Below are positions 990 to 63,616 of a stretch of 64,000 bases of DNA, one piece after another (within the stretch, counting starts at the first letter, position 1; each line of letters begins with the position of its first letter). The notes under the pieces were generated by a model. The model saw only the letters and a program-made list of their open reading frames with translations, was not told the DNA's origin and searched no databases. The position numbers were made by a program, and so were the translations under genes. The stretch comes from Apostichopus japonicus (taxonomy: Eukaryota; Echinodermata; Holothuroidea; Aspidochirotida; Stichopodidae), in the NCBI RefSeq assembly GCF_037975245.1, contig NC_092576.1:28369611-28433610 (forward strand), in the 5' to 3' direction.

Positions 990-1116
990 CATAGTCAGCT
1001 GCACAATATACCTCTTGAGGATGCAGTAGTACACATGTGCAGCACTGTATGTTACGAATGCTGTACATTACAAGTACAACACTCAGTACGCGGGAGAACC
1101 ACATCGCCTTTGGCAT
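990..1116 (-). CDS. TIMP-like gene 0, exon 1 only (partial at left edge)
   Basis: This is the first coding exon of a TIMP-family secreted metalloproteinase inhibitor; the other exons lie left of the window. It starts with ATG at 1116-1114 and ends after 42 codons plus one base, followed by a GTGAGT donor at 989-984. It encodes a hydrophobic signal peptide (about 25 residues) and then the TIMP N-terminal signature CTCVLLHPQEVYC, with cysteines at mature positions 1, 3 and 13. The exon differs from exon 1 of gene 3 (46292-46418) at only two bases; one changes Ser to Tyr in the signal peptide. By comparison with gene 3, exon 2 should lie about 450 bases beyond the left edge. Exon call is firm; whether the complete gene is intact cannot be seen. 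Confidence 0.85.
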
Positions 1117-1310
1117 CTTCTATAACGTCTCAGAGAGATAAATCTACTTATTAATATTTTCGGGCAACTCTAGTCTTGAGTCGTCAGCAAAAACGCATTG
1201 GTTTGCCGCAATCATGCACAAGGTTATTATGTGCCAAAGTACTTGTTCAACAACCGATTAAATTTCTCCCTTACCAGTTAGTGCATATTCTGTTACATAG
1301 AAGAAAAAGA
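1117..1310 (-). promoter_or_regulatory. Conserved 5' flank of TIMP-like gene 0
   Basis: Sequence directly upstream of the start codon that is conserved before all five TIMP-like genes. It includes the block TTTGCTGACGACTCAAGAC (minus strand, 1191-1173), which holds a bZIP-like TGAC..CTCA core. The transcription start was not identified, so this may combine 5' untranslated region and core promoter. Confidence 0.45.
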
Positions 1311-3222
1311 AAACACATCGTATGGCTAGCGAGAAATGAACACAACCTGGGGCTTCATTTGAATTGTTACGACGGTACAGGAAAAAGAAACAAATGTGAT
1401 AAATGTGAAATTCGAAATGAATGCACTAGTAGTTGTGAGGATTCATCCTACATAAGAAAGATCAAAACAAAATATTCGTCCTTATATGTTAGCGTAATAG
1501 CAGGTAGCCTTATTACATGTTGTAGTATCATTGGATCCCCCTCGGTGCATAGCTAAATGTTATATGAGTATATCTCAAGAAAAATTCAAGTAAACGACCG
1601 CAAAAAATACATCTGGATTTTCAGACGAAATACAACAATTATTTTGAAAACTTTGAATCTTAAACGATATACCCAATTATGTTATTAACGTAGATGTTTC
1701 CACTAATTACTAAGTCTATATAATAAAGCTGGATTTTCTATCGATATACCAATTATTTTGATAAACCACACAGCCGCATATATATATACAAATAGATGCA
1801 TACGCAAAAGCCTAAAACTTAGCTATAATGCTCAGTTTCAGTTGGTCAACAGCTCACACACCCATTCTTTTATAAACTCGTACCCCATTGTCATTTGTGC
1901 TCTTGTTTGCGTCTAACTTCACAGGCAAATATTCTGAACTCTCGCGAATGCACGGTTTGGCTCATTGCGCTCTTGTTTCAACACATTTCCTGTATAACCC
2001 TGGCGACAAAAGATTTGCGGGTATATCGAAAACGTTCGAGGCAATAACATCACACCACATATGATAAAGCTCAGCTCCGTTACATTCTAATATACATTTA
2101 TTAAGATGAACACAATCGCCGTCGCGTCTAGGTTTTAAATGGCGATGAAAAATCTAATCGACTATGGACATCAACTGTCATTTTTGTCCTTGCTGAGTTT
2201 AATCCATCCCCCGAAGTGACGGGGGTGGATTAAACTCATCCCCTTGTAGACTTCAAGTTACTCGCCAGCTGGGATGGGTCCTGAGGGAGAACCCCCGGAA
2301 GCTCCGAGAAAATAAGCTCATGTTTAAAGCATATGACTTTCATTAGCATGTCACACCTTTTGATCTAGGATGGGATCTGGGGAGAGCGAGTGGGAACAAC
2401 ACTTCTTGGGGGGGGGGGAATATTTATATTTTTTGCAAAATCATATTGCCAGGTTTTGCAATGTTTTAGGGACCATATGTTACATCCCACCTTGGTGACG
2501 TCAAATGCATTAAAGCTGCAAACCAAACTCAGGCCCAGCTCGTGGCCGGGAACATGGGAGGAGGCCCAAGTCGGAGTCCAGAATGCTATGCGACAATGAA
2601 TGTCCGTCAAGTACCAGCGGTATAGGTTAAATGAACTCGAGCGAGTTGCTCCCGGTGGGGTCTAGGTAGTGGTGCTCAGATGACCTTCAATGAGTTAAGA
2701 CCCTGAACGTTTAAAATTTCCAGTGGCATCAAGGGGCCTAGGTAAGAGCTTTTGTGTTATGTAACAGTGTCCTTGCATTGTTACGTATAATGGCAATGGT
2801 AGCTCTTAGGCATAATGGAGACAAACACTGTATCATACGTAAGGTAGGTATATATTGTAGGTCTACATCTCCAGGAAGCGTCATTGATCACATGCATACA
2901 CATACACAAGAAGAGAATGTCAGGAAAGTTTATTTCATCATATAACATTTTCAAACATAAACAGAAAAGTTACAGCATGAACATAATGTCTGGACATAAT
3001 GAAGAAAGGTAAATTGAGAAGGTATAACCTGACATTAAAGTTAGCTATACCATGGTGACTCATTATATGTTGATTTAGATGTGATCACATGGTCTAAGAT
3101 GGGGCGAAGCGGCTGTCTGAATTGGTCAGCAGACAGCTTGCACAAGGGAGAAAAAGGATTGTTACTTATGATTGAGCAAAAGCACACGTTATATATTCGT
3201 ACTTGACAATCATCTACGAGCT
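1311..3222. other. Intergenic spacer upstream of gene 0
   Basis: No gene is supported here. The part 1311-2180 aligns with 16500-17520 and 46610-47480. The part 2600-3222 aligns with 18635-19260 and 47885-48490. The part between (about 2180-2600) is shared with unit 3 but replaced by unrelated sequence in unit 1, so one of the two is an insertion or replacement. Confidence 0.6.
2195..2237. repeat. Near-perfect hairpin present in copy 1 only
   Basis: Arms GAGTTTAATCCATCCCCCG (2195-2213) and CGGGGGTGGATTAAACTC (2220-2237) are reverse complements apart from one bulged base, with a 6-base loop. In the duplicate at 47487-47504 an unrelated 18-base stretch stands in place of the left arm. Confidence 0.8.
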
Positions 3223-5760
3223 TCTACTAACACAAAGCTCACTTTACTTCCCACATGAACCACCCCTAACTCCCTCCCTCTTTCTCCAGTTTTTGGTACA
3301 TTACCGCCCTTTTGACAAGCTCTGTACCACCTAACCAAATGAATGAAAATATCGCTCTCTCCCACCGCACCAGTACGCGACGCGGAATTGGGTACACCGC
3401 GCCCGGGTACCACAAGATGGGCGAAACAAAAAGATTAATAACGGTGACTTTCCCCAAGATCGAAAGCCAGCAGGTGTCAAAGTTTTTGAGCCTGCTCTCA
3501 AATACCCTAGCCTTCTCGTTGCAGGTGACATCACAATGTGTATCCGTAGCCGAACCATATACCATTAATTTTGATATTCTGATCCTACCAAGACGCACCG
3601 AATGGTAAGTCTTTGTATCTCCAGCTACCAAGGCGAAAGCCCTTTGTTTTGTTCGGATTCAACTTTGCCCGGTAGCTCTCTCAAAGTTAGATAAATTCTG
3701 CGAGAGGGCACGAAAGGAGCCCAGACTCGAAACAACACACGTGACGTCATCTGCATTTTGAACGCATTTCACTTTGGCACCCCTTAGCACAACGAATGGA
3801 ACAAGTCTTTAGTCCCTTTCCAAGCACCGGAAGAGGACTCTCTTAACAAAACACAAAGTAATGGAGACAGAGGGCACCCCTGGTGCACCTCTATCTACAT
3901 TAAAACGCTCTGAACAAATTCCATTTATGATCACAGAACTGAAACTTTCCTGATAAGAAACACATATCCATTTACAAAAATATGGGTGCAACTGAAACGT
4001 CTCCAATACATTCATTAAAAAACCGCGATCCACCATGTTAAAGTCCTTCTGCCGGTCAAGAAAGACCAATGAAGATGACAGATCACGGTCAATAACAAAG
4101 TCGGTCTATAGCGCTTCAAACACAAGTTCTGCTGGATGCAATGACCCTTCACTGCACAAGTCTGGAGATGACCCACAAGATGCGGCATAGCCAGTGCAAG
4201 GCAGTTGCACAAAGCCTTAGCCAGCAAACATTTAACAAGGTAATCGGACGCTCGTTATGATGATCCAAGGGGTCCTCAGACTTGGGAAGCAAAGTAATTA
4301 TGCCAAACGTTGACTTTGGTTTAACAGTCCGTTCAGGAAGGCGTCTTCGAAGACGGCTCTGATGTCGGGTCCTATTATTGCCCAAAAGGTTCGGTAGAAC
4401 TCCCTCGGAAGCCCGTCCGAACCCAGGGACTTGCTATTCTTTATCTTTGAAAGCGCCTTCCAAAGCTCAACAGTGGTTATTCCGCCCACTAACATATCAT
4501 TGACCTCATGGGGAATAGTTTGTGAGATTCCCCTCAATATATCGGCCCGTTCCGACCAGTCGACATTGCCGCGCATAAACAAATTCGAATAATAATCTTT
4601 ATACACGCGGACAATGCCGTGAGGGTCACTAACCACGGTCCTATCAGTAGTGCGCACAGATGGGACGCATCTGTCACCCGCCGATGAGCTAACAAACTGG
4701 TAAAACCTCAGTTAAGGGGGCTCCTTAGCTTTCAATGCTTAGACACGGGCCCTGACGCACCGTGGTAATTTTCATCGAGATAAGTCTGCAAAGCGATGAC
4801 AGCCAAAGAGTCGTCAAACTTCACCTCCGCGCACAGCTTCGATAATTCTTCTCTCCGCCACCGTGCGCTGGTCACACAATATAGAACCGCGTAGCGTTTA
4901 ATGTGGAAGTTGACACCATCCAAACATTAGGATGTAGAGGCAAAGGCCGGCTTGAAAGTTTGCTATCCATTGTACCTGGTTTCGAAACCTTGGCGGAAAT
5001 TTTCCTCGCCTAGTATCTGACATTTAAGTTTCCATAGGCCCCGCCCGATCGGGAAAATAGAAGCCAGATCAAACCGTGCAACCACAGTGTCATGGTCAGC
5101 GAGCGGACAGCTCAGTGTCACGCAACTCGAACATGTAAGACTAACGGGCGCATATGCTCGATTTATTTTCGACACATCTTCCCCATTTGGCCTCACCCAT
5201 GTTATACCCCGTACTACACGGGTGCATATGCCTCAAGACATCAGCTAAAAGGTGTGTGGAAGTGAATCTGTCCAGTTATGTGATCCCAGCGTCGGGACTA
5301 GCAGACACAGAAGCCCCGGATTCTGCCAAGAACCGAGTCTGAGACACAGTTTAAGTCTCCGACCATGACACATGGTGCACTACCAGGAATGAAGGAAGGC
5401 AGCGTGTCAAAAAAGTCTCGTCTATGAGAAGACCGATTGGGAGCATACACAGTACAAAGGGAGATATTACCCTGTGGATACTTGAAAAGAATGCAAAACA
5501 ATCGGCACTCATGGTCCGTCTCCACCCTAGTGGCACAACCCGCCTGACGAGGTGACAGAAGGATGACAGTGCCTCAGGATGAAGACAAAGCAATCGAAGC
5601 ATGCAGCTCACCACCCCACTCATAAGCCCATAGAGGGACATCTTCCAAAATGTGTGTTTCTTGCAGGCAAACGCAGTCGACCTCCATTGACTTGAAAACA
5701 CACTTTCTGCATTCTCACTCCATAAGGTGGATCTGTTATCCTGCATTATTACTTTGCAAC
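3223..5760 (-). mobile_element. LINE-A copy 1, decayed, 3' end deleted (L1/Tx1-like non-LTR retrotransposon)
   Basis: Fragmented reverse-transcriptase element read right to left. Near 5700-5330 are parts of an APE-type endonuclease (a V-Y-A-P-N strand and a G-D-L-N-C active-site block). Near 5190-4970 is its C-terminal part (A-D-H-D followed by G-R-G-L-W-K-L). At 4657-4298 is the linker typical of L1/Tx1 elements (K-S-L-G-S-D-G-L-P-R-E-F-Y). At 4260-3810 come reverse-transcriptase motifs (F-L-D-R-Q-K-D-F-N, then N-G-I-C-S and R-G-A-P). The thumb or C-terminal region follows at 3630-3270. Frames shift repeatedly, so it cannot encode an intact protein. The 3' part present in the copy at 50160-53070 is deleted here. 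Clade placement (L1/Tx1 type) is by motif spacing and is tentative. Confidence 0.85.
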
Positions 5761-6269
5761 ATTACTTTACACAGACTAATATGGAAGTATTAAACTAAAT
5801 AAGGGGCGTGGCTATTTCTCAGCATTTCCAGAGACAGCAATGACACCATATAAGTGGAGCGCAAAAATAAAACAAGCAAGAGAAAAATCTGTCATGAGCC
5901 TTTCAGATCCCGGAAATGAAATTTTCCAGAAATTTCAAGTTGCATAAATCACTCCACTTTGTTCCAGTCATTAGAGGCGAAAAACAAAATCAAAGTTGAT
6001 TCTTAAGTCAGGAGTACAGTACTTTCCACTCTGGTAGCCATTATATGTTTCTGTGTGAAAATAACACTTACTCTTTCAAAAAAACGAAATTCCAATTTAA
6101 AGTCAATTTAAAATATAACATGAATGTATGAAGACTTACAAATGATCTGCCTTTTTGCCGTACAACAAACAGCGCCCCCACATTTTTCAAGGCTTCACTG
6201 TTTAAACACACGGCGAAACACTGCGTCAGCATTTTCCCAGGTCAATTAAATTACATATATATATATATT
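5761..6269. other. Spacer between LINE-A and LINE-B, copy 1
   Basis: AT-rich non-coding sequence that matches 53070-53600. It ends in a short (TA)n run at about 6254-6270. No gene is seen. Confidence 0.5.
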
Positions 6270-6422
6270 ATGGGGAAGTTCAACAATTCTCTTCTCGCTG
6301 GCTCCGATGATACCAATTTAATTACCAAGGATATTTTAGATCTCGCTGACAATTTTAAAAACAAAGACCCTCCTTTTTCGTCTGGACTTTATTAACTATT
6401 CTTGTCGCAAAACCACCATTGT

Positions 6423-6642
6423 GTAGATAGATAGATAGATAGATGATTTATTCAGCCACATGCATAAAAATACAATGGAAATTGTTCAAACACAAGAGCT
6501 CTAAAACAGACATGAAATTGAAAACGCATAACGATGAAACACATATAAAAAGTGATATTGCATGAGTGATAAATACCGGTAAAAACAAGGCTAAAGAAAG
6601 TACAGTAAAAACAAGGCAAAAGAAAGGAGGCATATGTAGAAG
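6423..6642 (-). mobile_element. Short retroposon 3' fragment nested in LINE-B
   Basis: A minus-oriented fragment of about 220 bases interrupts LINE-B. Read on its own strand it ends in GCTGAATAAATCATC followed by a (TATC)n tail (plus strand 6425-6445), as in a 5'-truncated retroposon. The same insertion is in copy 2 (about 53755-53970), so it predates the duplication. Confidence 0.55.
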
Positions 6643-7670
6643 CAGTTGTTAAAGAAAATTTCCTGCCTTGAACAAGCCCATTGGGCCTCCAACTCCTCTG
6701 ATAATTTCATAAAACATTCTTTAACCAGGAATAAACTACACATTTATGATTATAAACTTAGGGGTATTATCATTGGCTCTAGATTAGAGCTATGTGGGTG
6801 GAGAAGGGGGGAAAAAATACCGAGTACTGTTTTGATCTTCAAGAGCGTATTAAATCCTTTAATGTAATTCATAAGCTGAAAACTTATGATTGTTCTTTCA
6901 TCTTTCATGGTCCAGACATTCTCTCCAATTTGCGTCCGTATTATGAATCCCTGTAGTATAGTGAAATGTGTAACCCATCTCTGCTCCTTGACAATCTGCC
7001 TAATGTCAATGTTCTGTCGAATGAAAGTGCTGCCAGTAGTGATGCTAAATTAAGTTCTGACGAGTGTTACTCAGCCTTAAATTCACTTAGTAAAGGTAAG
7101 AGCCCGGCAGCAATGGTTTATCAGTAGACTTTTACATACAAAACAAAAATGGTCAATCATAGCTGATATTGTAACCAATGCCTTGAACTTTGCGTATGAT
7201 ACCTTATTTCTTTCTGAAGCTCGCAGTGTTATTATTAAAAATAGGTTTATTGGAGAGAACATCCGTTGTATGTGAGATTTAGATTAACGTCACTGCCTTT
7301 TGTGTGTATTATTATTATTATTAGATTTTGAAAAGGTCTTTTACCGTCTTGAATGGAACTTTATTTTTGATTGCGTATATTTTTAATTTTTAACAACAGT
7401 TTCATTATATGGAGTCGAAAGTTTTATTCTAACTCCCCAGCCTGTGTTATTAATCATGGCTTTTCTTCGCCATCCTTCAAAATGCCTAGGGGAGTTTGTG
7501 AAGGCTGCCCTCTTAATCTATATATTTTATCATTTGTGTAGTGGCACTTGCTATTAAAATTAGTTCTTCTCGTATATTAAAGGTATTTCTATTTTAGGTA
7601 CTAAGTGTAGACTAATTCAATATGGTGATGACACCTGTATTGTAGTAGAAGATCGTACTTACAACAGCTT

Positions 7671-7945
7671 ATTTATATATAATTATGGGAAATTCAACAT
7701 TTCTCTTCTCGCTGACTCTGATTTTACCAATTCGATTACCAAGCATATTTTAGATCTCGTTGAAAATTTTATAGACAAGACCCTCTTTTTCGTTTGGACT
7801 ATATTGAATATTCTTGTCGCAAAACCACCATTGTGAACAGTGAAAACAAGGCAAAGAAAGGAGGCATATGTGGAAGCAGTAGACTTATTCAATGTGCTGA
7901 TTACATCTATATTGTATTAGATGGTACTGACAACAGCTTAAAGGC
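7671..7945 (+). repeat. Copy 1-specific insertion/duplication inside LINE-B
   Basis: After the Y-G-D-D box, a segment resembling the LINE-B start (about 6270-6410 plus 6600-6635) is followed by a second, diverged version of the polymerase-box region (compare 7607-7670 with 7884-7944). The duplicate at 54930-55010 has only one version, so this is a local insertion with flanking duplication. Confidence 0.6.
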
Positions 7946-9720
7946 CACAGTTGATATTTTGAACATTTAGGGGCTTTCTTCTGGTTTGAGAGTAAATTAT
8001 GACCAGTCTAATATTTTCCCGTTATTTTCCCTTGCTTCTCAGAAACCCCGTGTTTCTTTTTGTGTTGACATTATGTCGTGGTCTTGAGCATCACATTTGA
8101 TAACTGTCATGATAATCTTTTTCGCCTTAATTATTCCCTAAAGTTATCACGTCTAAAATATATTTTAAACCTGTGGTCCGCTCGTGGCCTTACCTCTGTA
8201 GGCAAAATTTAAATCTTCAAATCAGTTTGTCTTCTCGTGCCAGATCCTTACTGATCACCCCGCTCCCTTTATCAACAAGTTAGAAAACTTTTTTTGGCTT
8301 CGCTTGGGGTGGTTAACCTGATCAAGTTAAGCGTAAAACGGTCATTGCTACTAGTCACCCTACTAGTAGTCACCCTACAAACGGTCACCCTACTAGTCTG
8401 GGTGACCTAAGGGCAATCCATATTCATTCTTTTATCCGTAGCTTGAAATGTGTGTGGGTAAGACGATATACTGAACAGGTACATGCAGATGGAAACGTTT
8501 TTCTTGACCTTTTTTTGAACAAATATGGCAAGCATCTTCTTTTTAAATGTAATTATTCTTGTAATGATATTGTTATTCCTAATTCATTTATTAATGATGT
8601 CTGCTCTGTTTGGGCTTATAATAATATTAGACCTGTAGAAAATAATTCACATTCCAAAATTATTTCGAATAACTCCAGTATCAAGGTAAATAATAAGACA
8701 GTGTGTTACAGCTTTATGTATAACAAGGGTGTTATAACCATCAATGATCTGATAGATGACGACTATATACCTTTAAGCTTTGTTAACTTTAAACGTATTT
8801 ATTCTAGAGAAGATTTCCCTTTCACCTTATTTTATGGCCTCATTTCTGCTATCCCCAGGCACTGGAAGAATAACAGGACCCCCACTGTTTCCCATGTTTT
8901 GCATACCACCCCTTTTGACAAGATTCACTGTACTCCTTTCCTCTCCAGGTGTTTTTACAAGAAGTTAGTTAAATCTTTCATTTCTTCTCCCTACTTGTGA
9001 GAATAAATGGACCCGCTCCGGGTTTTTTTATTTAAGTGATGAACAGTGGCAAAATATTTTTTCTTATTCCCTTCCTCTCCTTAAAAGAATCAAAAGTTCA
9101 GTATTTCCAGTTCGTTTTATCTATCGCATCATTCTCACTAATTACCTTCTTCTCCCGTATGCAAATTAAGGATAATGCTCTATGCACATTTTGTAAGAGA
9201 TGTGTAGAGACTATTGATCATCTCTTCTGGGTTTGTAAGATAACCTCCAGCTTTATTCTGCATATGGAGCAATGCATTTTATGGGAACAGTTTGTCTTTT
9301 TCAAAGTACGATCTCTTTTTTGGTTATAATTTCCCATATAATTTATGAATCTTACATCTGAAGTATTATATCTTCAGTAAAATGTTGACCTCGGAGCCTT
9401 TTAGTTTACATCAGTTTCTGGACAAGTTTTAGTTTCTCCTGCAAGTAAAAAAGAACATCGCTAGCGGTGGTAGCACTTAGCAATTTTCTTTCAATGACTA
9501 TGAGAAAGCTTTTTAGAACGGTCCCTTTCTGTTAAATTAATTTGCTCCTTCTCCAATTCCATTGAATTATGTCTATTACATTAAGATCCAGATTATATGT
9601 ATTGTGTTGAAGTAAGAAACAAGACTACTATGTTTGTCACATATGTTTGTGTTATTATGTGACATTGAAAGAAGCAAAAACAGAAAAGAAAAAAGAACTA
9701 TGATTGTTACGCTAAGAGAA

Positions 9721-9819
9721 ATATTATGTTCATTATGTCAAATTAAGAGATATGTGAATATTGATGCATGAAATAAACAAACGAATGATAAACGAGTTGA
9801 GAACTCAAAAAAAAAATGT

Positions 9820-9824
<5 letters not shown>
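9721..9824. other. Short spacer before AT microsatellite
   Basis: Non-coding sequence; nothing recognised. Confidence 0.4.
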
Positions 9825-9885
<61 letters not shown>

Positions 9886-9990: not shown

Positions 9991-10040
<50 letters not shown>

Positions 10041-11446: not shown

Positions 11447-11452
11447 TTTATT
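11447..11452 (-). terminator. AATAAA overlapping the gene 1 stop codon
   Basis: On the minus strand, CAA-TAA-AGT contains a canonical polyadenylation hexamer spanning the stop codon. No other AATAAA was noticed on this strand just downstream. Whether it is used is not known. Confidence 0.4.
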
Positions 11453-14400
11453 GCTGTCTCAAGCACCTCTTGTAGTCTCTCCCTCCGAGCCAGACGCAAA
11501 TCCCTTTCTTGTTCTTGCCGCATCTTGCAAAATCAATTTCACAATTCCCACCATCGCCGTAGCTGCCGAAATTGGCCGATTCCAGTGTACATATTCCTTC
11601 AGTTGAATCACAATAGTCGTATTGCCCGCATATCTGATTACAAGAGAACATCAGTAACTGATTCACGTGTGATTTTATCTCATGACTGCCTGATTATAAC
11701 ATTGAAGTCACACTGTTTACGGACCAGACACATTGCAACAGAAACCCCAAAAGTCAGTCGGCTGAGAAATAAGTTACTGTGGTGTATTTGTGATTTCATT
11801 CCATGATTGCCCGTATATAATGTTTTCTTCGTTCGTGGTGAATTTTAGCCGAGTCGTGTTATATAACACTTCGCAGTATTTAATAATCAATAATCGTTGA
11901 CGTAACCCTACGACAAGGCCTAATGCTTTTGATTACAAACTTACGGAACATTTGTTGCAGTTCTTCTTATACTGACGTTTCAGCCCTTGAGACTGTCGCT
12001 TGGTGATCCGATCAACATTCCTGTAAGATCCGCATGGTTCGAGTGTCAATTGGTCATCCACTACATTGCCTACAAAGATGAGTCAAAAACAGGATTACGT
12101 ATAAGAGTACATCTGACGATAAAATGTACGCACTGATGATAAGGTTAGTAGAGTAGAAAGGAGAGGTACAGCAATATAAAAGGACCTTAAATGGAGCGTC
12201 CAAATTCACGCATATCCAACAATTGTTTGATTTGGGTGAGATTTCTTTTGAACATTTTTCACCTCTACATGCCCGGATATGACACTATCAGGCTTTCCCT
12301 TTATCATCCTGTTGAGGATTTCTTTGGAATGTTCATTATGGTTAGTGTATCTGGAAAGAATCTATATCGTTTTATTTTTCAATTCTTGTCATCCTGCTGG
12401 GAGAATTTTTACCGCATAACCTTTTTATAAACGATTTACTGTACACAATAATTTTAAGTAATATTCTGTCTGCCAAAAATACGCTTATGAACTATTTCCG
12501 ATTGTGTTCACTGTTATTGGCCGGGTTTACATCCCTCTTAACCCCCCCCCCCCCCAAGCTACACCATGGGTTGGCGTCTGCTGGCGATTATTAAGCACAT
12601 AAAGAAGAATATTGGTACTCTGATTGTTCTTTGCGGAATACATCTTCGAGCCCAAGAGTTCAGGGGAACCTTCCTGCCAACACGCTGCAATGTTTCCAGA
12701 GCTAATTGTTGTCTCGTAGCGAGCTCACATTTTAGAGAGGAATATATTTGAAAGCCCCTATAGCTTTAAGGGGCTTGAACTTTTGTTAACCTTGCGTTTT
12801 AGCAACAGGTGACGAAATACATGTTAACCACGTAATCTCAATTGGAAAGAGACTACAGCGTGTGATCTCACAATTTCCAAACGCACATTTTCCTTTTTTT
12901 CTCAAAAAGGTGCGGTATTTCAATACACTATTTAGTGCCACTGCCGGGCGAATATTTTTGGGTTTGTTTTGTATCAGGTACAAATATGGACATTACTGCG
13001 TTTTTCACGTTCCCGGTTAAATCTAACAATATAATTAAATCTAATAACAATTATTGTAACTACGCCTAAAGTCTAACATCAGGACGAACGGAACCGTGTT
13101 TTTCACTCTTACCCATTATAACATAATTCTGATTGATAGAAAGATAGACGTTACAATCAAGCTTTGCATGGTGAGTGACTATGATCTCGACCGTCGTTCC
13201 TTTGGCAGTCAAACCGTTTCTTTTAAAAACCTTCTCAATATCCACGGTGTAGACAATCTTCTTCATTGCGTCAAAACCCACAGCTGAATGTAAACGAAAC
13301 AAGGTAATAAAAAAAAATATTTACTGTAACATAAAGCTGACCTACCTTGCGAAGTTCACACAAATACAGGTCAATGATTGCCTGGGAATAAAGGGGCAGT
13401 TGGTTGGGGATCAAGGTGGTGGACGTATCGCAAGATTGAACAGTGACATAGATATGTGTTATGCAATTCTTCTTATTTTCAATACCGCTGGTTTGATTTT
13501 TTTCTTCTTCTTCATTACGTTATAAACAACCACTAACAGCCGATATACTTATAACATGAATCTTGTCATCCTTGCTGATCAGTCTGATCTCTAATCTTTT
13601 CATGGCAAATTCAGGAAAAGAAGTGAACGTAGATATTTTGGTTTTCTTAAAGGCAGATAACATACATTTTTGTACTTTTGATAACCTATCACGTGACCAA
13701 CTATCAAAATTTAATACCCGAGGAATTTTTGTTGTTGAAATTTAAGCAAGTTTATACTGCGGATAGTTTTGAAGTAGAAGATTCACGTTAACTCAATCTT
13801 TTCTTTTACTGGCGTAGACCACAATGAATATGCTAGTTTGTATCACCAATCCCTTTTTACCATTGTGGTTAACGGTTTAATATTAAGTTTATAGTTTACG
13901 CTTGGTAAGTTATTACATTATTACTCCAAGCCCAATCTATTATTCTGTTAATTTTAGTACACTGTTTACGTTTAGTACACTCTTGAAAAGAAGCCATTAT
14001 GACTTTGCTATTATTATTAATCTTGCAATCCATGTTCAAGCCCTCGCAGAAATGAAACTTTAAAACTTCATACAAATAATATACATGTCAATTGTTGTCG
14101 CTGAATAATGAGAGTGTTTGAGTGGTGTCACTAATAACAATGATGACGAGAGCATCAAATTTATTACCATTTTGAAACAATTGCTTTCTATGTAACTCGC
14201 GAAACTTACATTTTAGAACAGACAACTCTGGAATCAAACAAGATAGTATACAAATTTTATCAACAGAATTGTGTCAACCGCGAATTGTCTTCCTATGTGA
14301 CCACTCGATGACCTTCTTTGTAACATATTGAAGTTTGTAGACGTGTTCTCTAATAAAACTGATTTTTTTGATAGACCACTTACAACGATTGTAAGATTGT

Positions 14401-26384: not shown

Positions 26385-26390
26385 TTTATT
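26385..26390 (-). terminator. AATAAA overlapping the gene 2 stop codon
   Basis: Same arrangement as in gene 1: a canonical hexamer spans the TAA stop on the minus strand. Use is unproven. Confidence 0.4.
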
Positions 26391-41736: not shown

Positions 41737-41742
41737 TTTAAT
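41737..41742 (-). terminator. ATTAAA overlapping the gene 3 stop codon
   Basis: The common variant hexamer ATTAAA spans the stop codon on the minus strand, at the same place as in genes 1, 2 and 4. Confidence 0.35.
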
Positions 41743-46418: not shown

Positions 46419-46612
46419 CTTCTATAACGTCTCAGAGAGATAAATCTACTTATTAATATTTTCGGGCAACTCTAGTCTTGAGTCGTCAGCAAAAACGCAT
46501 TGGTTTGCCGCAATCATGCACAAGGTTATTATGTGCCAAAGTACTTGTTCAACATCCGATTAAATTTCTCCCTTACCAGTTAGTGCATATTCTGTTACAT
46601 AGAAGAAAAAGA
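46419..46612 (-). promoter_or_regulatory. Conserved 5' flank of TIMP-like gene 3
   Basis: Nearly identical to 1117-1310. The conserved TTTGCTGACGACTCAAGAC block lies at 46493-46475. Confidence 0.45.
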
Positions 46613-50159: not shown

Positions 50160-53070
50160 TCTATCCTTGGGCACAGTCCATCACCCAATTGTCAATGATA
50201 CCTTTTTAGATTGGTCAAGCAATTTGCGCAATTCTCCAGGCAAGATCACGGAGCCTGCAACCATTCAGCCTTGAACACACCGAATGCCCTACTTCGGCAG
50301 AATGACGTCCCTGTACAAATATCGCATTCAAGGCCCATATCCCGCAAGGAACTGTGAACGAGGGCTGGCCGTGACAGGTTAACAGGGGGCAACTCATTAA
50401 GAGCGAAGTAAATGACACGCACCACCCTGCTTGGTACTATGCGGTTCTCTGTTGCTAAACAGCGCCGGGACCCATCGACGCACTTGCAACCCGCCCCCAA
50501 AACGTTCCAAATATGAACAGGGCAACCCTGGGCCAGTTACCGCTACAAACTATTGCTTAAATAACACAAAGCTCACTTTACTTCCCACATGAACCACCCT
50601 AACTCCCTCCCTCTTTCTTCAGTTTTTGGTACATTACCGCCCTTTTGACAAGCTCTGTACCACCTAACCAAATGAATGAAAATATCGCTCTCTCCCACCG
50701 CACCAGTACGCGACGCGGAATTGGGTACACCGCGCCCGGGTACTACACGATGGGCGAAACAAAAAGATTAATAACGGTGTCTTTCCCCAAGATCGAAAGC
50801 CAGCAGGTGCCAAAGGTTTTGATCCTGCTCTCAAATACCCCAGCCTTCTCGTTGCAGGTGACATCACAATGTGTATCCGTAGCCGAACCATATACCATTA
50901 ATTTTGATATTCTGATCCTACCAAGACGCACCGAATGGTAAGTCTTTGTATCTTCAGCTACCAAGGCGAAAGCCCTTTGTTTTGTTCGGATTCAACTTTG
51001 CCCGGTAGCTCTCTGAAAGTTAGATAAATTCTGCGAGAGGGCACGAAAGGAGCCCAGACTCGAAACAACACACGTGACGTCATCTGCATTTGAACGCATT
51101 TCACTTTGGCATTCCTTAGCACAACGAATGGAACAAGTCTTTAGTCCCTTTCCAAGCACCGGAAGAGGACTCTCTTAACAAAACACAAAGTAATGGAGAC
51201 AGAGGGCACCCCTGATGCACCTCTATCTACATTAAAACGCTATGAACAAATTCCATTTATGATCACAGAACTGAAACTTTCCTGATAAGAAACACATATC
51301 CATTTACAAAAATATGGGTGCAAGTGAAACGTCTCCAATACATTCATTAAAAAACCGCGTTCCACCATGTTAAAGTCCTTCTGCCGGTCAAGAGAGACCA
51401 ATGAAGATGACAGATCACGGTCAATAACAAAGTCGGTCTATAGCGCTTCAAACACAAGTTCTACTGGATGCAATGACCCTTCACTGCACAAGTCTGGAGA
51501 TGACCCACAAGATGCGGCATAGCCAGTGCAAGGCAGTTGCACAAAGCCTTAGCCAGCAAACATTTAACAAGGTAATCGAACGCTCGTTATGATGATCCAA
51601 GGGGTCCTCAGACTTGGGAAGCAAAGTAATTATGCCAAACGTTGACTTTGGTTTGACAGTCCGTTCAGGAAGGCGTCTTTGACTACGGCTCTGATGTCAG
51701 GTCCTATTATTGCCCAAAAGGTTCGGTAGAACTCCCTCGGAAGCCCTTCCGAACCCAGGGACTTGCTATTCTTTATCTTTGAAAGCGCCTTCCAAAGCTC
51801 AACAGTGGTTATTCCGCCCCCTAACATATCATTGACCTCATGGGGAATAGTTTGTGAGATTCCCCTCAATATATCGGCCTGTTCCGACCATTCGACATTG
51901 CCACGCATAAACAAATTCGAATAATAATCTTTATACACGACAATGCCGTGAGGGTCACTGACCACGGTCCTATCAGTAGTGCGCACAGATGGGACGCATC
52001 TGTCACCCGCCGTTGAGCTAACAAACTGGTAAAACCTCAGTTAAGGGCGCTCCTTAGCTTTCAATACCTAGACACAGCCCTGACGCACCGTGGTAATTTT
52101 CATCGTGATAAGTCTGCAAAGCGATGACAGCCAAAGAGTCGTCAAACTTCACCTCCGCGCACAGCTTTGATAATTCTTCTCTCCGCCACCGTGCGCGGGT
52201 CACACAATATTTAACCGCGTAGCGTTTAATGTGGAAGTTGACACCATCCCAACATTAGGATGTAGAGGCAAAGGCCGGCTTGAAAGTTTGCTATCCATTG
52301 TACCTGGTTTCGAAACCTTGGCGGAACTTTTCCTCGCCTAGTATCTGACATTTAAGTTTCCATAGGCCCCGCCCGATCGGGAAAATGGAAGTCAAATCAA
52401 ACCGTGCTACCACAGTGTCATGGTCAGCGAGCGGACAGCTCAGTGTCACGCAACTCGAACATGTAAGACTAACGGGCGCATATGCTCGATTTATTTTCGA
52501 CACATCTTCCCCATTTGGCCTCACCCATGTTATACCCCGTACTACACGGGTGCATATGCCTCAAGACATCAGCTAAAAGGTGTGTGGAAGTGAATCTGTC
52601 CAGTTATGTGATCCCAGCGTCGGGACTAGCAGACACAGAAGCCCCGGATTCTGCCAAGAACTGACTCTGAGACACAGTTTAAGTCTCCGACCATGACACA
52701 TGGTGCACTACCAGGAATGAAGGAAAGCAGCGTGTCAAAAAAGTCTCGTCTATGAGAAGACCGATTGGGAGCATACACAGTACAAAGGGAGATATTACCC
52801 TGTGGATACTTGTAAAGAATGCAAAACAATCGGCCCTCGTGATCCGTCTCCACCCTAGTGCCACAACCCGCCTGACGAGGTGACAGAAGGATGATAGTGC
52901 CACAGGATGAAGCAATCGAAGCATGCAGCTCACCACCCCACTCATAAGCCCATAGAGGGACATCTTCCAAAATGTGTGTTTCTTGCAGGCAAACGCAGTC
53001 GACCTCCATTGACTTGAAATCACACTTTCTGCATTCTCACTCCATAAGGTGGATCTGTTATCCTGCATTA
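50160..53070 (-). mobile_element. LINE-A copy 2, decayed
   Basis: Fullest LINE-A copy in the window, read right to left. At 53009-52626 is an APE endonuclease fragment with the L-Q-E-T-H catalytic glutamate motif, V-Y-A-P-N and G-D-L-N-C. At 52524-52291 is the domain end with G-R-G-L-W-K-L. At 51986-51630 is the linker with L-P-R-E-F-Y. At about 51600-51100 are RT motifs, and at 50964-50640 the thumb region. A 3' part homologous to 23871-24300 runs to 50165; the final tail is missing. Frames are broken in several places. Confidence 0.85.
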
Positions 53071-53599
53071 TTACTTTGCAACATTACTTTACACAGACTA
53101 ATATGGAAGTATTAAACTAAATTAGGGGCGTGGCTTTTTCTCAGCATTTCCAGAGACAGCGATGACACCATATAAGTGGAGCGCAAAAATAAAACAAGCA
53201 AGAGAAGAGTCTGCCATGAGCCTTTCAGATCCCGGAAATGTAATTTTCCAGAAATTTCAAGTTGCATAAAACACTCCACTTTGTTCCAGTCATTAGAGGC
53301 GAAAAACAAAATCAAAGTTGATTCTTAAGTCAGGAGTATAGTACTTTCCACTCTGGTAGCCATTATATGTTTCTGTGTGAAAATAACACCTACTCTTTCA
53401 AAAAAACGAAATTCCAATTTAAAGTCAATTTAAAATATAACATGAATGTATGAAGACTTACAAATGATCAGCCTTTTGCCGTACAACAAACAGCGCCCCC
53501 ACATTTTTCAAGGCTTCACTGTTTAAACACACGGCGAAACACTGCGTCAGCATTTTCCCAGGTCAATTTAATTACATAAATATATATATATATATATAT
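53071..53599. other. Spacer between LINE-A and LINE-B, copy 2
   Basis: Matches 5761-6269 and ends in a slightly longer (TA)n run. No gene. Confidence 0.5.
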
Positions 53600-56095
53600 T
53601 ATGGGGAAGTTCAACAATTCTCTTCTCACTGGCTCCGATGATATCAATTTAATTACCAAGGATATTTTAGATCTCGCTGACAATTTTAAAGACAAAGACC
53701 CTCCTTTTTCGTCTGGACTTTATTTACTATTCTTGTCGCAAAACCACCATTGTGTAGATAGATAGATAGATGATTTATTCAGCCACATGCATAAAAATAC
53801 AATGGAAATTGTTCAAACACAAGAGCTCTAAAACAGACATGAAATTGAAAACGCATAACGATGAAACACATATAAAAAGTGATATTGCATGAGTAATAAA
53901 TACCGGTAAAAACAAGGCTAAAGAAAGTACAGTAAAAACAAGGCAAAAGAAAGGAGGCATATGTAGAAGCAGTTGTTAAAGAAAATTTCCTGCTTTGAAC
54001 AAGCCCATTGGGCCTCCAACTCCTCTGATAATTTCATTAAACATTCTTTGGCCAGGAATAAACTACACATTTATGATTATAAACTTAGGGGTATTATCAT
54101 TGGATCTAGACTAGAGCTATGTGGGTGGAGAAGGGGGAAAGAATACCGAGTACTGTTTTCATCTTCAAAAGCGTATTAAATCCTTTAATGTAATTTATAA
54201 GCTGAAAACTTATGATTGTTCTTTCATCTTTCATGGTCCAGACATTCTCTCCAATTTGCGTCCGTATTATGAATCCCTGTAGTATAGTGAAATGTGTAAC
54301 CCATCTCTGCTCCTTGACAATCTGCCTAATGTCAATGTTCTGTCGAATGAAAGTGCTGCCAGTAGTGATGGTAAATTAAGTTCTGGCGAGTGTTACTCAG
54401 CCTTAAATTCACTTAGTAAAGGTAAGAGCCCGGCAGCAATGGTTTATCAGTAGACTTTTACATACAAAACAAAAATGGTCAATCATAGCTGATATTGTAA
54501 CCAATGCCTTGAACTTTGCGTATGATACCTTATTTCTTTCTGAAGCTCGCAGTGTTATTATTAAAAATAGGTTTATTGGAGAGAACATCCGTTGTATGTG
54601 AGATTTAGATTAACGTCACTGCTTTTTGTGTGTATTATTATTATTATTAGATTTTGAAAAGGTCTTTTACCGTCTTGAATGGAACTTTATTTTTGATTGC
54701 GTATATTTTTAATTTTTAACAACAATTTCAATAGATAGATTCGAACGTTTTATTCTAACTCTCCAGCCTGTGTTATTAATCATGGCTTTTCTTCTCCATC
54801 CTTCAAACTTTCTAGGGGAGTTTGTGAAGGCTGCCATCTTACTCCATATATTTTATCATTTGTGTAGAGGCACTTGCTATCTCGTATATTACGGTATATT
54901 ATAGGTATTTCTATTCTAGGACTAAGTGTAGACTAATTCAATATGGTAATGACACCTGCATTTTATTATTATAGTACTTACAACAGCCTTCAGGCCACAG
55001 TTGATATTCTGAAAAGTTTGTAGCTTTCTTGTGGTTTGAGAGTAAATTATGACCAGTCTAATATTTTCCCGTTAGGTCCCCTTTCTTCTAGGAAACACAG
55101 TGTTTTTCTTTTTGTTGACATTTAATCCTGTCACGGTCTTGAGCACCACATTTGATAACTGTCGTGATCTCTTTTTTGCCTTAATTATCCTCCAAAGTTA
55201 TCCCGTTTAAAATAAATGTTTAAACCTATGGTCCGCTCGTGGTCTAAACCCTGTAGGCAAAATTAAAATCTCCAAATCAGTTTGTCGTCTCGTTCCAAAT
55301 CCTTACTGTTCACCCGCTCCCTTTATCAAAGGGTTAGAGAACTTATTCTTTCTGTTCCTTTGGGGTGGTTAACTCGATCAAATTCAGCGTAGTACGCTCA
55401 TTGCCCCTACGAGTTTGGGTGACCCAAGGGGCCATCCATATTCATTCTTTTATCCGTAGCTTGAAATGTGTGTGGGTAAGACCGTATATCGAACAGGTAC
55501 ATGCAGATTGGAAACGTTTTTCGTTACCTTAAATTTAACAAATATGGCAAGAATCTTCTTTTTAAATGTCAGTATTCTTGTGATGATATTCTTATTCCTA
55601 ATTCATTTATTAATGATATCTACTCTGCTTGGGCTTATAATAATTTTAGACCTGTATAAAATAATCCACATTCCGAAATTATTAGGAATAACTCCAGTAT
55701 AAAGGAAAATAGTCAGACAGTGTGTTACAGCTTTATGTATCACAAGGGTGTTATAACCATCAATGATCTGTTAGATGACGACTAGATACCTTTAAACTTT
55801 GTAAACTTTAAACGTATTCATTCTATAGAAGTTTTCCCTTTCACCTTTTTAATGGCCTTATTTCTTCTATCCCCGGGCACTGGAATAATAACAGGACCCC
55901 CACTGTTTCCCATGTTTTGCATACCAACCCTTTTGACAAGATTTAACTTAATTTCTTCCTCTACTTGTTTGAATGAATGTACCGGTGATTTTGATTTAAG
56001 TGATGAAAAGTGGCGAAATATTCGTCTCATTCCTTTTCTCTCCTTAAAAATATACTTAAATATTTATATATTTATATGTTTCGCATACCATCCGT
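53600..56095 (+). mobile_element. LINE-B copy 2, decayed, 3' end deleted
   Basis: Counterpart of 6270-9060 with the same nested minus-strand retroposon fragment at about 53755-53970. Motifs are the same but the polymerase box is further damaged (Y-G-N-D-T near 54953). The zf-RVT-like 3' segment of copy 1 is missing, and the sequence runs into an AT tract at 56105. Confidence 0.8.
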
Positions 56096-56104
56096 TTTGA
56101 CAAG

Positions 56105-56135
56105 ATAGATATATATATATATATATATATATATG
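56105..56135. repeat. (AT)n microsatellite
   Basis: AT dinucleotides followed by GTAGGTATAAATTT and the unit-typical TTTTTGTAAATTATCC. Confidence 0.9.
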
Positions 56136-57604: not shown

Positions 57605-57610
57605 TTTAAT
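57605..57610 (-). terminator. ATTAAA overlapping the gene 4 stop codon
   Basis: Variant hexamer over the stop codon, same position as in the other complete genes. Confidence 0.35.
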
Positions 57611-60600
57611 ACTGTCCCAAGCACCTCCTGTAGTCTTCTCCTCCGAGCCAGGCGCAAAACCCTTTCCTTGTCTTACCGCATCTTGCAAAATCAATTTCAC
57701 AATTCCCACCATCGCCGTAGAAGCCGAAATTGTAGCTGGCCGATCCAAATGTACATATTCCTTCAGTTGAATCACAATAGTCCCATTGCCCGCATATCTG
57801 ATTTGAAGAGAAAATCAGTAACTGTGATGTACGTGTGATTTTATTTCATTACTGCCTGAATAAAACATTATCGTCACACTGTTAACAGACCAGACACATT
57901 GCAACAGAAACCCCCAAAATCGATTTGTTATGCGGCTGAGACATATGTTACTCTGACGTACTGGTGATTTCATTCCATGATTGCCCGTATATAATGTTGA
58001 CGTCGCACTGTTTACCTCGTTCATTGTAAATTTTAGCCGAGTCCTGATTTGTAACACTTTTCGGTATTTAATAATCCACATCGTCGATGTAATCCTACGG
58101 CAAGGCCTCATACTTTGATAACAAACTTACGGAACATTCCCTGCAGTTCCTCCTATACTGACGTTTCAGCCCAAAAAACTGTCGCATGGTGATCCAAACA
58201 AGATCCCTGTAAGATCCGCATGGTTCGAGAGTCAATTCGCCATTAACTACATTGCCTATGGAGATGAGCCACAAAAATGGAAATTAGATATTAGAGCACA
58301 TCTGACGTACGTACTTGTTATTATAGGTCAACATTTTCTTATCATGAACTTATAATGTTTACAATCAAGGAAGTGCGCAGAGAAAAACGCTCAGAAAGAG
58401 GAGCCACACCTGGCATTTTAAGAACCGTTTAAATGTTAAAAGAATCAATGTAAAGTTAATTAACCGTCTAACGCTTATAGTTGGACTATTTTGTAAGTAG
58501 AGAATAAAGGAGCGGTGATATAAAAGGACCCTCAAAATTAGTATCCAAATTCAGCCACACCCAACAATTGTTGGATTTGGGTGAAATTTCTTTTCAACAT
58601 TTGGCACCTCTACATGTCCGACACTATGACACTATCAGGATTTCCCTAAATCATTTGGAGGACGGGCTTTCCCTGCTTCCTGTTGGGGATTTCTTTTGAA
58701 AGTATTTTTTGGTCAGTAAATCTGGAAAGAATCTTAAATGTTTATTTCATTTTTCGATTCCTGTCATCCTGTTTTGAACAAGGCGCAACCCCCTCTTTTG
58801 GTCGTAGAAAAAGATTAAGATGTTAAGTTATACATAACTGGGTTCCCTCCTTTTGAAATATTTGGAAAATGGAGACCGCTTCGATGTACAATGGTGCTAT
58901 ATTTTCAATTGTTGAAACCATTTATGAAGATATTTCGGTTGTTATTGTTGCACCGCATAAACATGTAATACATTCTTATACTGGACATAATGATTTTAAG
59001 TATTAATGTGTCAGCCAAAAATTGGTAAATTTGACCAACATCGGTGACAGTTTGTTCTAAATTACATAATGTATACTCATGCGATAATGAACTATTTCCG
59101 ATTATGTTCACTGATTGTTATTGGCTGGGATTACAAACCCCCTCTTACCACCTCTCCGAGCTACATCATGTGTTGGCGTCTGCTAGCAATTATTAAGCAC
59201 ATAAAGACAAATATTTGTACTGTTATTGTTCTTTGCAGAATACATCTCCGACCTATAGCGGTGTCCAGGGGAATCCCACCTTCCCATGAGTTGGAACGTG
59301 TCCAGATCTGCTTGTTGTCTCGTAGCGAGTTCAAAGCAGAAAACAACATCCCAGAGAGGATTTGAATTTCAATGGATTGTATATAAAAGCCCCTGTAGGT
59401 TCCTGTCACTGATATTTCGTTCCGTTTACCTTACGGTCTACCACCAGGTAACGAATGACAGGTCAATCACGTAAATCTCAAAAGTAAATTTGATGGCACG
59501 AAACATGTGATATCACAGTTTTTGCACACTCATATACCAAATGAGTGCGATATTTATTACACTATTAGGGTCACTACCTGGTGAATACTATTGAGTTTGT
59601 TTTGTATCACGTGCAAGTATGTACGGTCCCTGTTTAAATTTACAATAATATTAAATCTAATAACAATTATTGCTACTACGCATAAAGTCAAACATGAGGA
59701 CGAACGGAACCGTGTTTTTCACTCTTACCCATTATAACATAACTCTGATTGATATAAAGATCGACGGTGCAAGCAACCCTTGCTTCATGAGTGACTATGA
59801 TCTCGACCGTCTTTCCCTTGTGAGTCAAATAGTTTCTTTTATATCTCTTCTCAATATCCACGGTGTAGACAATCTTCTTCGTTGCGTCAAAACCGACAGC
59901 TAATTGTAAAAGAAACCAAAAAGAAAAGAAAATAATATACAGTGACATCAATCTGACCTACCTTGCCATGTTTAGGCAAATACAGGTCAATTCTTGCAAT
60001 GGTTAAAGGAAGTTAAAGGGGCAATTGGTTGGGGATCGAGGTGGTGGACGTATCGCAAGATTGAACAGTGGCATAGATGAGTTTTGTGCAATTCTTCTCA
60101 TTTTCAATACCGCTGGTTTGATTTCTTTCTTCTTCTTTTTGTTATAAACAACCACTCACAGCCGATGTACTTATAACATTAGTCTCGTCATCCTTGCTGA
60201 TCATTTTAATCCCCAATCTTTTCATTATCAATTCAGGAGATAAGTAAACTTAGAGAAATCGGTCTTTGATATTATTGAGATCAAATTTATTTAAGCACTT
60301 TTGACTATTAAGTGACCAACTATCACAATTGAGTGACCGAGAATTTTAAAGTTAAGCAAGATGATACTGTGCGCATATTTTTAAAGGAGAATCTTTAAGT
60401 TGACTCAATCTTTACTTTTTTCTGGCGTATTAAAAATCAATGCATATGCAAGCTTTGTATCACCAAACCCTCTTTACTATTGTGGTGAACGGTTTAATAT
60501 TAAGTTTTTAGGTTAACGCTTGGTAAGTTGTAGCATTATTACTCCAAGCCTAAACTATTAATCTGTTAATTTTAGTACACTGTTCACGTTTAATACACTC

Positions 60601-63600
60601 TGAAAAGGAGTCATTATGATTTTGCTATTATTATTAATCTCGCAAAAGCGCTCAATCGTATTTGAGAAACCATGTACGATCGAGACCGTTCAAGCCCTTG
60701 CAGAAATAAAACTATAACACTTTATGCAAGTAAATAATCATGTAAAGTATTGTCGCTGAATACTGAGAGTATTTGAATGGTTTCAATTATAACAATGATG
60801 ATACGAGAATCAAATTCGTTATCATTTTCAAACGAAGGCTTTCTCTATAACTGGCCAAACTTACATTTAGCGGAACAGACGAGTCTGGCTGTGAATCAAA
60901 CACTGAAAGAATGCATTGACCTCTTGGGAACCTCGTGCTAACTAAATATGATATCTCATCGTTAACATCATCTCTGACGTTTTTTTTTTACCTTCAAATT
61001 AACCGATCAGTATACGAACATTTATCATCAGAAATGTGTCAACCGCGAATTGCATTCCTTTGTGACGACTTGCTAACATTTCTGTAAAACCTTGACGTTT
61101 GTAGGCGTGTTTCTGTTACATACTTATTTGTTAGATAGATCAAATATTAACGATGATCGCAAGATTTCATCAAGACTTTAGACATGTCATGAGTATTTCA
61201 GCATATCTCAACTCTACCCAGAACGTCTTTGATACTCACAAAATGGAAAATAGTCACCAATGGGTGATGGTCGGTAACTGTGGCTTTCCTTAAAAAGGGA
61301 TTCTCCATCGGAGGGTATGATAGTTACATCTTTTGCTGTCACTTGGCCTTGTATGGCTGTGAAAATAAGTATTATATCATCTATCGACTGAAATTATACA
61401 AACGGAAAAATTACATGCCCAACGATTCCATGCCCATCGAATCTTTAATTATAGGTAGCAGTTGATATTTATCTTCTTCGCTAAGGCCCTTTTTTTATAT
61501 CAAGAAATGTCCGAAAATGAGAAATGCTTGACAAATAGTAATCTTAGATAACTTTAGAGACATTCGGATATTGGATAACAGTTGGACATGTTTGGTTCGA
61601 CCTTTCAACATGCTGCTTGCGTTGTTGACTTGTGTAGTAACATTTATTTTGTGAGTTTCCGTAGTGTTGTATGTTACGTAGTATTTGGTGTAACTTTGTT
61701 TGGCCATACTTCAAATTGTTCAGATTCAGCTGCTTATTTATTGGTCGACGTTTGAACGAAGTCATTGCGTGATTGGCTTGTTGAACTTTCGTGATTTTGT
61801 GTTACGTTATAGTCCTCTTCAGTGTCCATTTGGTATATAATTATATATACATACTCGGCGCACACGAATAAAATGGACTTCTGGCGTTGGTTGCGTCTAC
61901 TAGTATATTTTACATGCCAGATATTTAGCCATCTGAAATTACTTGTATCTTGTGAAATGGTTAGAAAGTAATGCTGTTTGTAATAGGGACCAGCTGAAGT
62001 GTTTTTTATTTCATTTTCTTGACGTTAAAGGGCTAAAGGAGGTACGTTATTGCCTATACATTAAATGCTTTCTTTGTGTGTCTTTGCTGGTTGACGTTTG
62101 TGCAAAAGTGAAATTTGTCTAGCTTTATATGTCCCCAAAACAAACTATAAAATGATACATTTTTGTTTAATGTACTGTAAGTGTTCTATTTTTGTATTTC
62201 GATAGTTTTACGGAGCAATGGAGTCTGTGCGTCTGCGAATCAAATAATTGCGGTGACTCCGATTTCTGTATACTCGTCCTTATTTTCGTTATCCCACGAC
62301 GGTTACAGCTTGTATTTAAGCACCATCAGAAACGTTTCCACAGAAACGTTCTTGCACTAACGTTGTAGCAGGTTCACTTTGCAAAATTTGAGATCCCATG
62401 CAAAAATATATCAACAAGAGGATGATACCGTGAAGTTTCCTTTTACATATAGTTAACACACACTCGGTCTTTTGTATTTATCTATGAAGGTTTATATTAA
62501 AGTTAATTACAAACTAAGTGTTACAGGTATAGAAAATCTCCATGAAACTCGCATTCACAAAATATAGTCTACGTCACACATCCCTTTTCAGTTTATTCTT
62601 GTAAGGTGGTTCTAGTATAGTGAATTCATAGGTGAATAGTTGAAGTCAACACTTGTTAATGCCGCAAGTGACTCTAGTCTACTCAAGTTAATATGACCAA
62701 AATATGACTAACTGAATGCTTGCGATAGTTCATTAGTTCAATGCATAAAAATATGAAAACCATTTCTTTGATTCTGTAAGGTAAAATCTCTAAGAAATAC
62801 TGTACAGTATATACTCATTTTGAGCACACCAACTAGTTTTTAAATTATGCTGTTTTTCAAATTATGAGCATCAAACTTTATAGACATTCAGATGCATGAT
62901 TTTTTTTAATATTTTATTGATACACCTCTTTAAAAGAAGACATCAATATCTTAAAGCAGCTTTTTTATATTGTTGGCAATTTTACAAGTATTACTTAAGA
63001 TAACACTGCGATTGATCACTAAGTAAATGACCTCGAATTTTCCACCAAATGAAGATTCATAGGATAGTAATTATAGGACTTGTATTCAACTATTATCATT
63101 AAACCGTCCAGAAAGCTTTCATAGTATAAATGCAAACCCATTTAAAAACTAAATGGGGAAACTCAAAGTTTTTATCGTAAGTTTGCTTCACATTTTCTTA
63201 AATGAGAAGTAGCTATTACGTTGATGACGTATACTTTTATAAGAGTTTACAATAAAATGGAATGTTTTAAGAACTCACAACATGAACGGTTAGTTTAGCT
63301 ATTTATTTAAGCTACTTTTTCTCTCAATTACTTCAGACGGTCAATCAACGAATTTCAGATTTTCAAACCTGTGATACAGGCACAATGCATCTAGCAAAAA
63401 GCACAACACATATCACCAAAGAAATATAATTAGAATGTCTGTAAAATGTAGTATGGAGGATAAATTGATTTATATAATATATTACTCACCATAATCAGAT
63501 GTACAGTATTCCTTTTGAGGATGCACATCTGCACATATGCAGCACTGTATGTTACGAATGCTGGACATTAGAAGTACAACACTCAGTACGCGGGAGAACC

Positions 63601-63616
63601 ACATTGCCTTGGACAT
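57606..63616 (-). CDS. TIMP-like metalloproteinase inhibitor, gene 4 (complete, 5 exons, 249 aa)
   Basis: Secreted TIMP-family protein. Exons on the minus strand: 63616-63490, 61356-61240, 59899-59711, 58255-58131, 57797-57606 (stop 57608-57606), open throughout with the same phases as its paralogs. The mature start is C-I-C-A-D-V-H-P-Q-K-E-Y-C: bulky Ile at mature position 2 and Ala at 4, unlike genes 0, 1 and 3 (Thr, Val) or gene 2 (Ser, Glu). Exon 2 begins A-I-Q-G-Q-V-T rather than V-I-Q-G-R-V-T and ends G-D-Y-F-P-F. Exon 3 has V-Y-T-V-D-I-E-K, connector cysteine in V-A-C-T-V, and Y-V-I-M-G-K. The C-terminal domain keeps the shared extra cysteine pair. Overall nearest to gene 1 in exons 1, 3 and 4, but clearly diverged, so an older copy. 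Confidence 0.87.

Follow-up and report, generated by a model that had tools for sequence, protein, structure and literature searches.

The DNA stretch analyzed here (the window, 64,000 nucleotides, C16:28369611-28433610 in a genome of 671,581,487 bases in 35 contigs) comes from the sea cucumber Apostichopus japonicus and carries a tandem array of TIMP genes. A sequence-only reading of the window had proposed five same-strand copies, four of them complete over five exons, with common exon phases and the motif C-x-C-x-x-x-H-P-Q-x-x-Y-C; it had also suggested a likeness to tensilin. A six-frame motif scan recovered all five copies (A to E); the motif lies at 63541, 46343, 35415, 16244 and 1041, in each case on the minus strand. 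The exon chains of the complete genes A-D were read from frames and splice sites. In these predicted splice models, all 20 exons were open, all 16 introns were of the GT-AG type, and the exon-end phases were 1,1,1,0 in each gene. Each gene gave one open frame, with a predicted protein of 231-249 amino acids (aa). The limits of the sequence-only reading, 990 and 63616, coincide with the exon-1 end of E and with the first codon of A, respectively. Signal peptides and mature starts were predicted by eye. For exon 2, a strong GTGAGT donor was preferred to weak GT sites of the YQYQ region, slightly further upstream.

Genome searches with the exons of the array showed that it comprises eight TIMP genes (A-H) at C16:28.281-28.433 Mb. 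Exons 1, 3, 4 and 5 were each found at eight places in this interval. Genes E-H, which are not wholly in the window, were also complete: all eight genes were open, and 32 of 32 introns were GT-AG. The models of E-H were found using patterns derived from A-D; the GTGAGT exon-2 donor of A-D was present in E-H as well, with a pattern that required it. The described layout was thus recovered in full, and the array is intact, larger than first reported and of a known family. No earlier description of it was found in the open-licence literature. The features in the window are listed in Table 1.

Table 1. Features of the TIMP array in the window (window coordinates)
Feature	Position	Strand	Remarks
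TIMP gene A, complete	57606..63616	-	243 aa; tip CICADVHPQ; splice model and Pfam TIMP, 2e-16
Gene A exons	63616-63490, 61356-61240, 59899-59729, 58255-58131, 57797-57606	-	
Gene A mature residues 1-9 (predicted protease-binding tip)	63515..63541	-	
TIMP gene B, complete	41738..46418	-	231 aa; tip CTCVLLHPQ; splice model and Pfam TIMP, 1.8e-20
Gene B exons	46418-46292, 44856-44746, 44024-43866, 42419-42295, 41911-41738	-	
Gene B mature residues 1-9	46317..46343	-	
TIMP gene C, complete	26386..35487	-	241 aa; tip CSCEQLHPQ; splice model and Pfam TIMP, 2.7e-21
Gene C exons	35487-35364, 34380-34270, 29459-29286, 27037-26913, 26577-26386	-	
Gene C mature residues 1-9	35389..35415	-	
TIMP gene D, complete	11448..16319	-	249 aa; tip CTCVLLHPQ; splice model and Pfam TIMP, 2.1e-19
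Gene D exons	16319-16193, 14604-14464, 13283-13113, 12069-11945, 11633-11448	-	
Gene D mature residues 1-9	16218..16244	-	Nucleotide-identical to B and E; remaining gene G/H-like
TIMP gene E, exon 1 only in window	990..1116	-	Exons 2-5 left of window (L031)
Gene E mature residues 1-9	1015..1041	-	
Left copy of duplicated block, in-window part	97..8925	.	Self-comparison; block continues left of window
Right copy of duplicated block, matching part	45416..55943	.	Self-comparison

The whole proteins A-D were scanned against family profiles. Pfam TIMP (PF00965) matched all four (E values in Table 1), with scores of 60.8-76.6 bits against a curated cut-off of 23.1; matches of this strength argue that the array is not a chance pattern. 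Three proteins aligned as a single stretch covering positions 2-183 of the 183-position profile, and the fourth aligned as two stretches, the better one spanning 37-183. The NTR profile matched three of the four. Among PDB entries, protein D matched TIMP-1, -2 and -3, its residues 26-54 aligning with residues 1-29 of TIMP-1 and its residues 99-185 with residues 37-121 of TIMP-3. A C-x-C followed by HPQ stands at the predicted mature N terminus in all five window copies and in all eight array genes, and C1, C3 and HPQ are invariant in the eight. Each array protein has 15 cysteines, 12 of which are canonical when mapped by hand on the alignment of protein D with PDB entries. The three extra cysteines are located at position -1 and at D residues 219 and 245. 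Because of the Pfam, NTR and PDB matches, membership in the TIMP family is not in doubt; the canonical cysteines also support the proposed assignment.

The copies carry three different tips: CTCVLL (B, D and E), CSCEQL (C and F) and CICADV (A, G and H). Divergence was measured as nonsynonymous (dN) and synonymous (dS) substitution by Nei-Gojobori means over the 28 gene pairs, which are not independent of each other. For the whole protein, dN was 0.149 and dS 0.198, with a mean dN/dS of 0.75. For mature residues 1-25, the values were 0.125 and 0.070. Pooled uncorrected proportions of nonsynonymous (pN) and synonymous (pS) differences at mature residues 1-9 were 0.176 and 0.027, and pN exceeded pS in 99.3% of 300 codon resamples. 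We also compared residues 1-5 and 66-70, which we take to be the protease-contacting edge of a TIMP, with the remainder of the protein. These residues differed more between copies than did the mature protein outside the AB loop as a whole (0.46 versus 0.21, permutation 0.0017) or all mature residues (0.25, permutation 0.0099); without cysteines, the permutation value was 1 in 100,000. The AB loop was about as variable (0.41) as the predicted contact edge. Judged by these alignments, divergence between the copies is concentrated on residues that contact the protease in known TIMPs.

Gene D carries the tip of B and E within an otherwise G/H-like gene. The alignment of D with G around exon 1 shows 25 differences in 490 bases, 6 of which fall within the 12 bases coding for the tip (permutation 0.002); for D versus H, the clustering at the tip gave 0.00065. 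Over these 12 bases, D has the sequence of B and E, while G and H have that of A. The simplest reading would be a short gene conversion, in either direction; convergence or old variation may also account for the pattern. Nothing relevant on TIMPs and gene conversion was found in the open-licence literature. A bolder proposal, which we regard as possible but doubtful, is that the array serves as a germ-line diversification system, in which the tip stretch would be swapped among neighbors by short gene conversion while selection keeps the diversity. If so, a single locus would supply inhibitors with different metalloproteinase targets.

In vertebrate TIMPs, Cys1 sits on the catalytic zinc of the protease and residue 2 points into the specificity pocket. 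We propose, with a probability of roughly 80%, that the eight genes encode secreted two-domain metalloproteinase inhibitors that are diverging at the tip and thereby diversifying their target range. In the manner of known TIMPs, the cysteine at the predicted mature N terminus would chelate the catalytic zinc of a metalloproteinase, and residues 2-5 together with the loop before the fourth cysteine would line the active-site cleft. The array probably grew through tandem and block duplication. Divergence of the copies would then have been strongest in the AB loop and at the tip that contacts the protease, apparently aided by short gene conversion, and the differing residues 2, 4, 5 and 6 may confer differing target ranges. 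Because the copies diverged most at the tip and the AB loop, the likeliest use would be as a panel of inhibitors with different targets, directed against the animal's own metalloproteinases during matrix remodelling.

Several observations weigh against this proposal. The tip comprises only nine codons, compared over non-independent pairs, and the test values are too favorable because the tip variation was seen before testing. The excess at residues 1-25 is weak (pN > pS in 77% of resamples), and pN came out above pS in only 5-17% of resamples for the signal peptide, the AB loop, the core and the C-terminal domain. Relaxed constraint could likewise raise dN/dS. Residue 2 is Ile in A, G and H (three of eight); vertebrate TIMPs have Thr or Ser. 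Finally, if the signal peptide were cleaved before the cysteine at -1, the inhibitory N terminus would be blocked. This extra cysteine directly precedes the predicted mature Cys1 in all eight array genes, giving C-C-x-C, and it was not seen in the five other genes with the same split of exons that were examined (C20:6.184, C8 and C16:41.84/43.81/44.30). By the -3,-1 rule for signal peptide cleavage, a cut between the two cysteines is likelier, and such a cut would leave a normal TIMP C-x-C N terminus.

In another reading, the copies no longer inhibit metalloproteinases, being redundant and under relaxed constraint or acting in metalloproteinase-independent signalling. The high whole-protein dN/dS of 0.75 and the possible block by the cysteine at -1 are consistent with it. 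So is the existence of echinoderm TIMP-like proteins without C-x-C or HPQ, which is described in PMC8467561. However, no frame is broken in any of the eight genes, the ends of all 32 introns are preserved, HPQ and the cysteines do not vary, and the excess of pN over pS is seen at the tip and not in the core or the C-terminal domain. We therefore consider loss of inhibition rather unlikely.

The spacing of the copies points to a larger unit of duplication. Exon-1 distances are 45.3 kb for B-E, 46.4 kb for C-F and 44.9 kb for D-G, and the block partners share 94%, 100% (rounded) and 93% protein identity, respectively. In self-comparison, the left and right block copies aligned in four main pieces with 82.7-96.6% identity. 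On the basis of spacing, self-comparison and protein identities, it appears that a block of three genes, about 45 kb long, was duplicated, giving B, C, D and E, F, G. An assembly artefact, in which two haplotypes were placed in tandem, could mimic part of this pattern: around exon 1, a single base in 498 aligned separates C from F, and 5 in 501 separate B from E. However, D is distinguished from G by 25 of 490 bases and by its tip, the window contains no N, and intron 2 of C holds an insertion of 2.8 kb that is missing from F, a difference that haplotypes can also show. Further, the likely source, the chromosome-level A. japonicus assembly (PMC10344927), is long-read with a contig N50 of 17.2 Mb. 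An artefact is quite improbable on this evidence.

The suggested link to tensilin was not upheld by the C-terminal tail, the gene structure or the tree. Two published marks were compared. Tensilins have two residues between the first and second N-terminal cysteines (PMC8467561), and a basic-then-acidic C terminus, the loss of which abolishes fibril aggregation by Holothuria forskali tensilin (PMC10053443). The first mark cannot decide, because the array reads C-C-x-C in eight of eight genes; this holds both the C-x-C and the C-x-x-C register, and which one applies depends on signal cleavage. The second was found in none of the eight array proteins, which stop 15 aa past the last canonical cysteine. 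Tensilin candidates, picked by motif and tail and not from a published tensilin sequence, were located elsewhere in the genome. L036 (C20:27.97 Mb) has C-A-D-C before YRYHPQ and a basic, then acidic end. A charged C-terminal tail is also present in L035 (C20:27.95 Mb) and in the L037/C20:6.45 Mb gene. Like L036, L035 has TIMP-type exons in addition to its basic-acidic tail; exon 1 of L035 was not found. L036 and L035 are the best tensilin candidates seen in this genome. In L036, the segments flanking the AB loop share one exon; in the array genes, an intron separates them. These segments also lie in separate exons in the C8 gene, three other C16 genes and the C20:6.184 Mb gene.

A tree of 26 rows, some of them partial and some on long branches, had 6 of 23 inner branches starred and 10 open; the C20 loci at 6.323, 6.391 and 6.418 Mb were left out. 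The 13 split-exon genes, array included, were set apart by a branch with support 91/94, below the program's star. The two tensilin candidates grouped with four C20 genes (93/85), and a fifth joined at 88/61. A clade of the array plus the two candidates was rejected by the approximately unbiased (AU) test (p=0.0004, at a cost of 34 log-likelihood units), with the reservation that the choice of this group followed inspection of the tree, that the candidates were motif-picked and that some branches are long. It is true that the host is a holothurian, that Holothuroidea is the only class with tensilins (PMC8467561), and that C-C-x-C includes the spacing of the tensilin mark. Given the missing tail, the different exon structure of the tailed L036 and the rejected clade, it is nevertheless quite improbable that the array genes code for tensilins, or for stiffening proteins like them, that would cross-bridge collagen fibrils under nervous control.

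The array is part of a large TIMP repertoire. Pfam and protein searches of the genome detected at least 28 TIMP loci, or 29 with a weak one. Beside the eight array genes, these comprise 14 loci at C20:6.16-6.53 Mb (plus the weak one at 6.323 Mb, E 0.21), two at C20:27.95-27.97 Mb, three on C16 (41.84, 43.81 and 44.30 Mb) and one on C8. The counts are lower bounds, with full models and established intactness for the array genes. Weak TIMP-like matches at C4:26.07 Mb (E 0.058, two stops), C20:20.86 (one stop), C20:33.19 (stops) and C19:0.32 (E 9.9) were excluded, as were exon-1-like matches on C21 (E 0.004, one stop) and on C5 and C1 (E about 1). The cluster at C20:6.16-6.53 Mb, with its 14-15 loci, is more divergent than the array. 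Eight of its genes have a candidate exon joining the AB-loop-flanking segments; in the 6.184 Mb gene these are split.

Published counts give 7-11 TIMPs per echinoderm genome studied and 28 as the largest animal repertoire (PMC10755359); no mention of A. japonicus was found in the available part of that paper. Holothuroids are rich in TIMP transcripts (Clouse 2015, PMC4807446), and transcript data yield 2-45 TIMP genes per echinoderm species (quoted in PMC10053443). The transcript counts of up to 45 were considered possible overestimates from splice isoforms (PMC10755359). A minimum of 28 distinct loci in the genome, with full models for eight, argues that the large repertoire is real in A. japonicus. 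For comparison, 17 matrix metalloproteinases (MMPs) were reported for this species (PMC8467561), fewer than the TIMP loci in the genome.

The array resembles known echinoderm and holothurian TIMPs (PMC4807446; Dolmatov 2021, PMC8467561) in encoding predicted secreted NTR/TIMP proteins with C-x-C and HPQ, in copy number and in a residue 2 that varies within species. It differs in that its genomic layout is seen, with eight intact genes and block duplication, in the cysteine at -1 in all eight and in divergence centered on the tip. With tensilin of C. frondosa, H. forskali and A. japonicus it shares the holothurian origin and the TIMP domain, and its C-C-x-C includes a C-x-x-C register, which would apply under one of the two signal cleavages; it differs by the lack of a charged tail, by a gene structure unlike that of the candidate L036 and by lying outside the tensilin branch, as defined by the motif-picked candidates. 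Vertebrate TIMP-1 to TIMP-4 are alike in having five exons (PMC10755359), a full-length profile match and the 12 canonical cysteines, but lack the two further cysteines (D 219 and 245), the longer, length-variable AB loop and the Ile2 of three copies. TIMP expansion by tandem duplication is also found in another phylum, in the bivalve Pteria penguin (28 genes); 132 of 142 molluscan TIMP genes have five exons (PMC10755359).

Sea cucumbers reversibly soften and stiffen their collagenous tissue and regrow organs, and metalloproteinases and their inhibitors are suspected to act in both processes. An expanded inhibitor array in an animal with mutable collagenous tissue agrees with the sequence-only reading, in which the array might contribute to fast control of stiffness. 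TIMP expansion in holothurians is already known; the diversification of the tip is the part worth following. Because the paralogues differ naturally at the tip, the array lends itself to testing how the tip of a TIMP determines its target range. The survey also supplies better tensilin candidates at C20:27.95-27.97 Mb.

Other sequences in the window were also inspected. In gene C, the 2.8-kb insertion of intron 2 spans about 30776-33577 and adjoins a 138-base tandem repeat; the frames 30611-31045 and 31049-31597 (minus strand), lying wholly or partly in it, had no Pfam match. Positions 3228-7668 and 50562-54987 contain two copies of a degenerate element, 96.6% identical, which was apparently carried along in the block duplication. 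By eye, its frames resemble the reverse transcriptase and endonuclease of a retroelement. The frames 4301-4711 and 3269-3658 had no Pfam match, and the frame 52629-53036 matched Pfam Exo_endo_phos (5.7e-06). This Exo_endo_phos fragment was the one Pfam match among the other long open reading frames of the window (41 listed, 10 tested).

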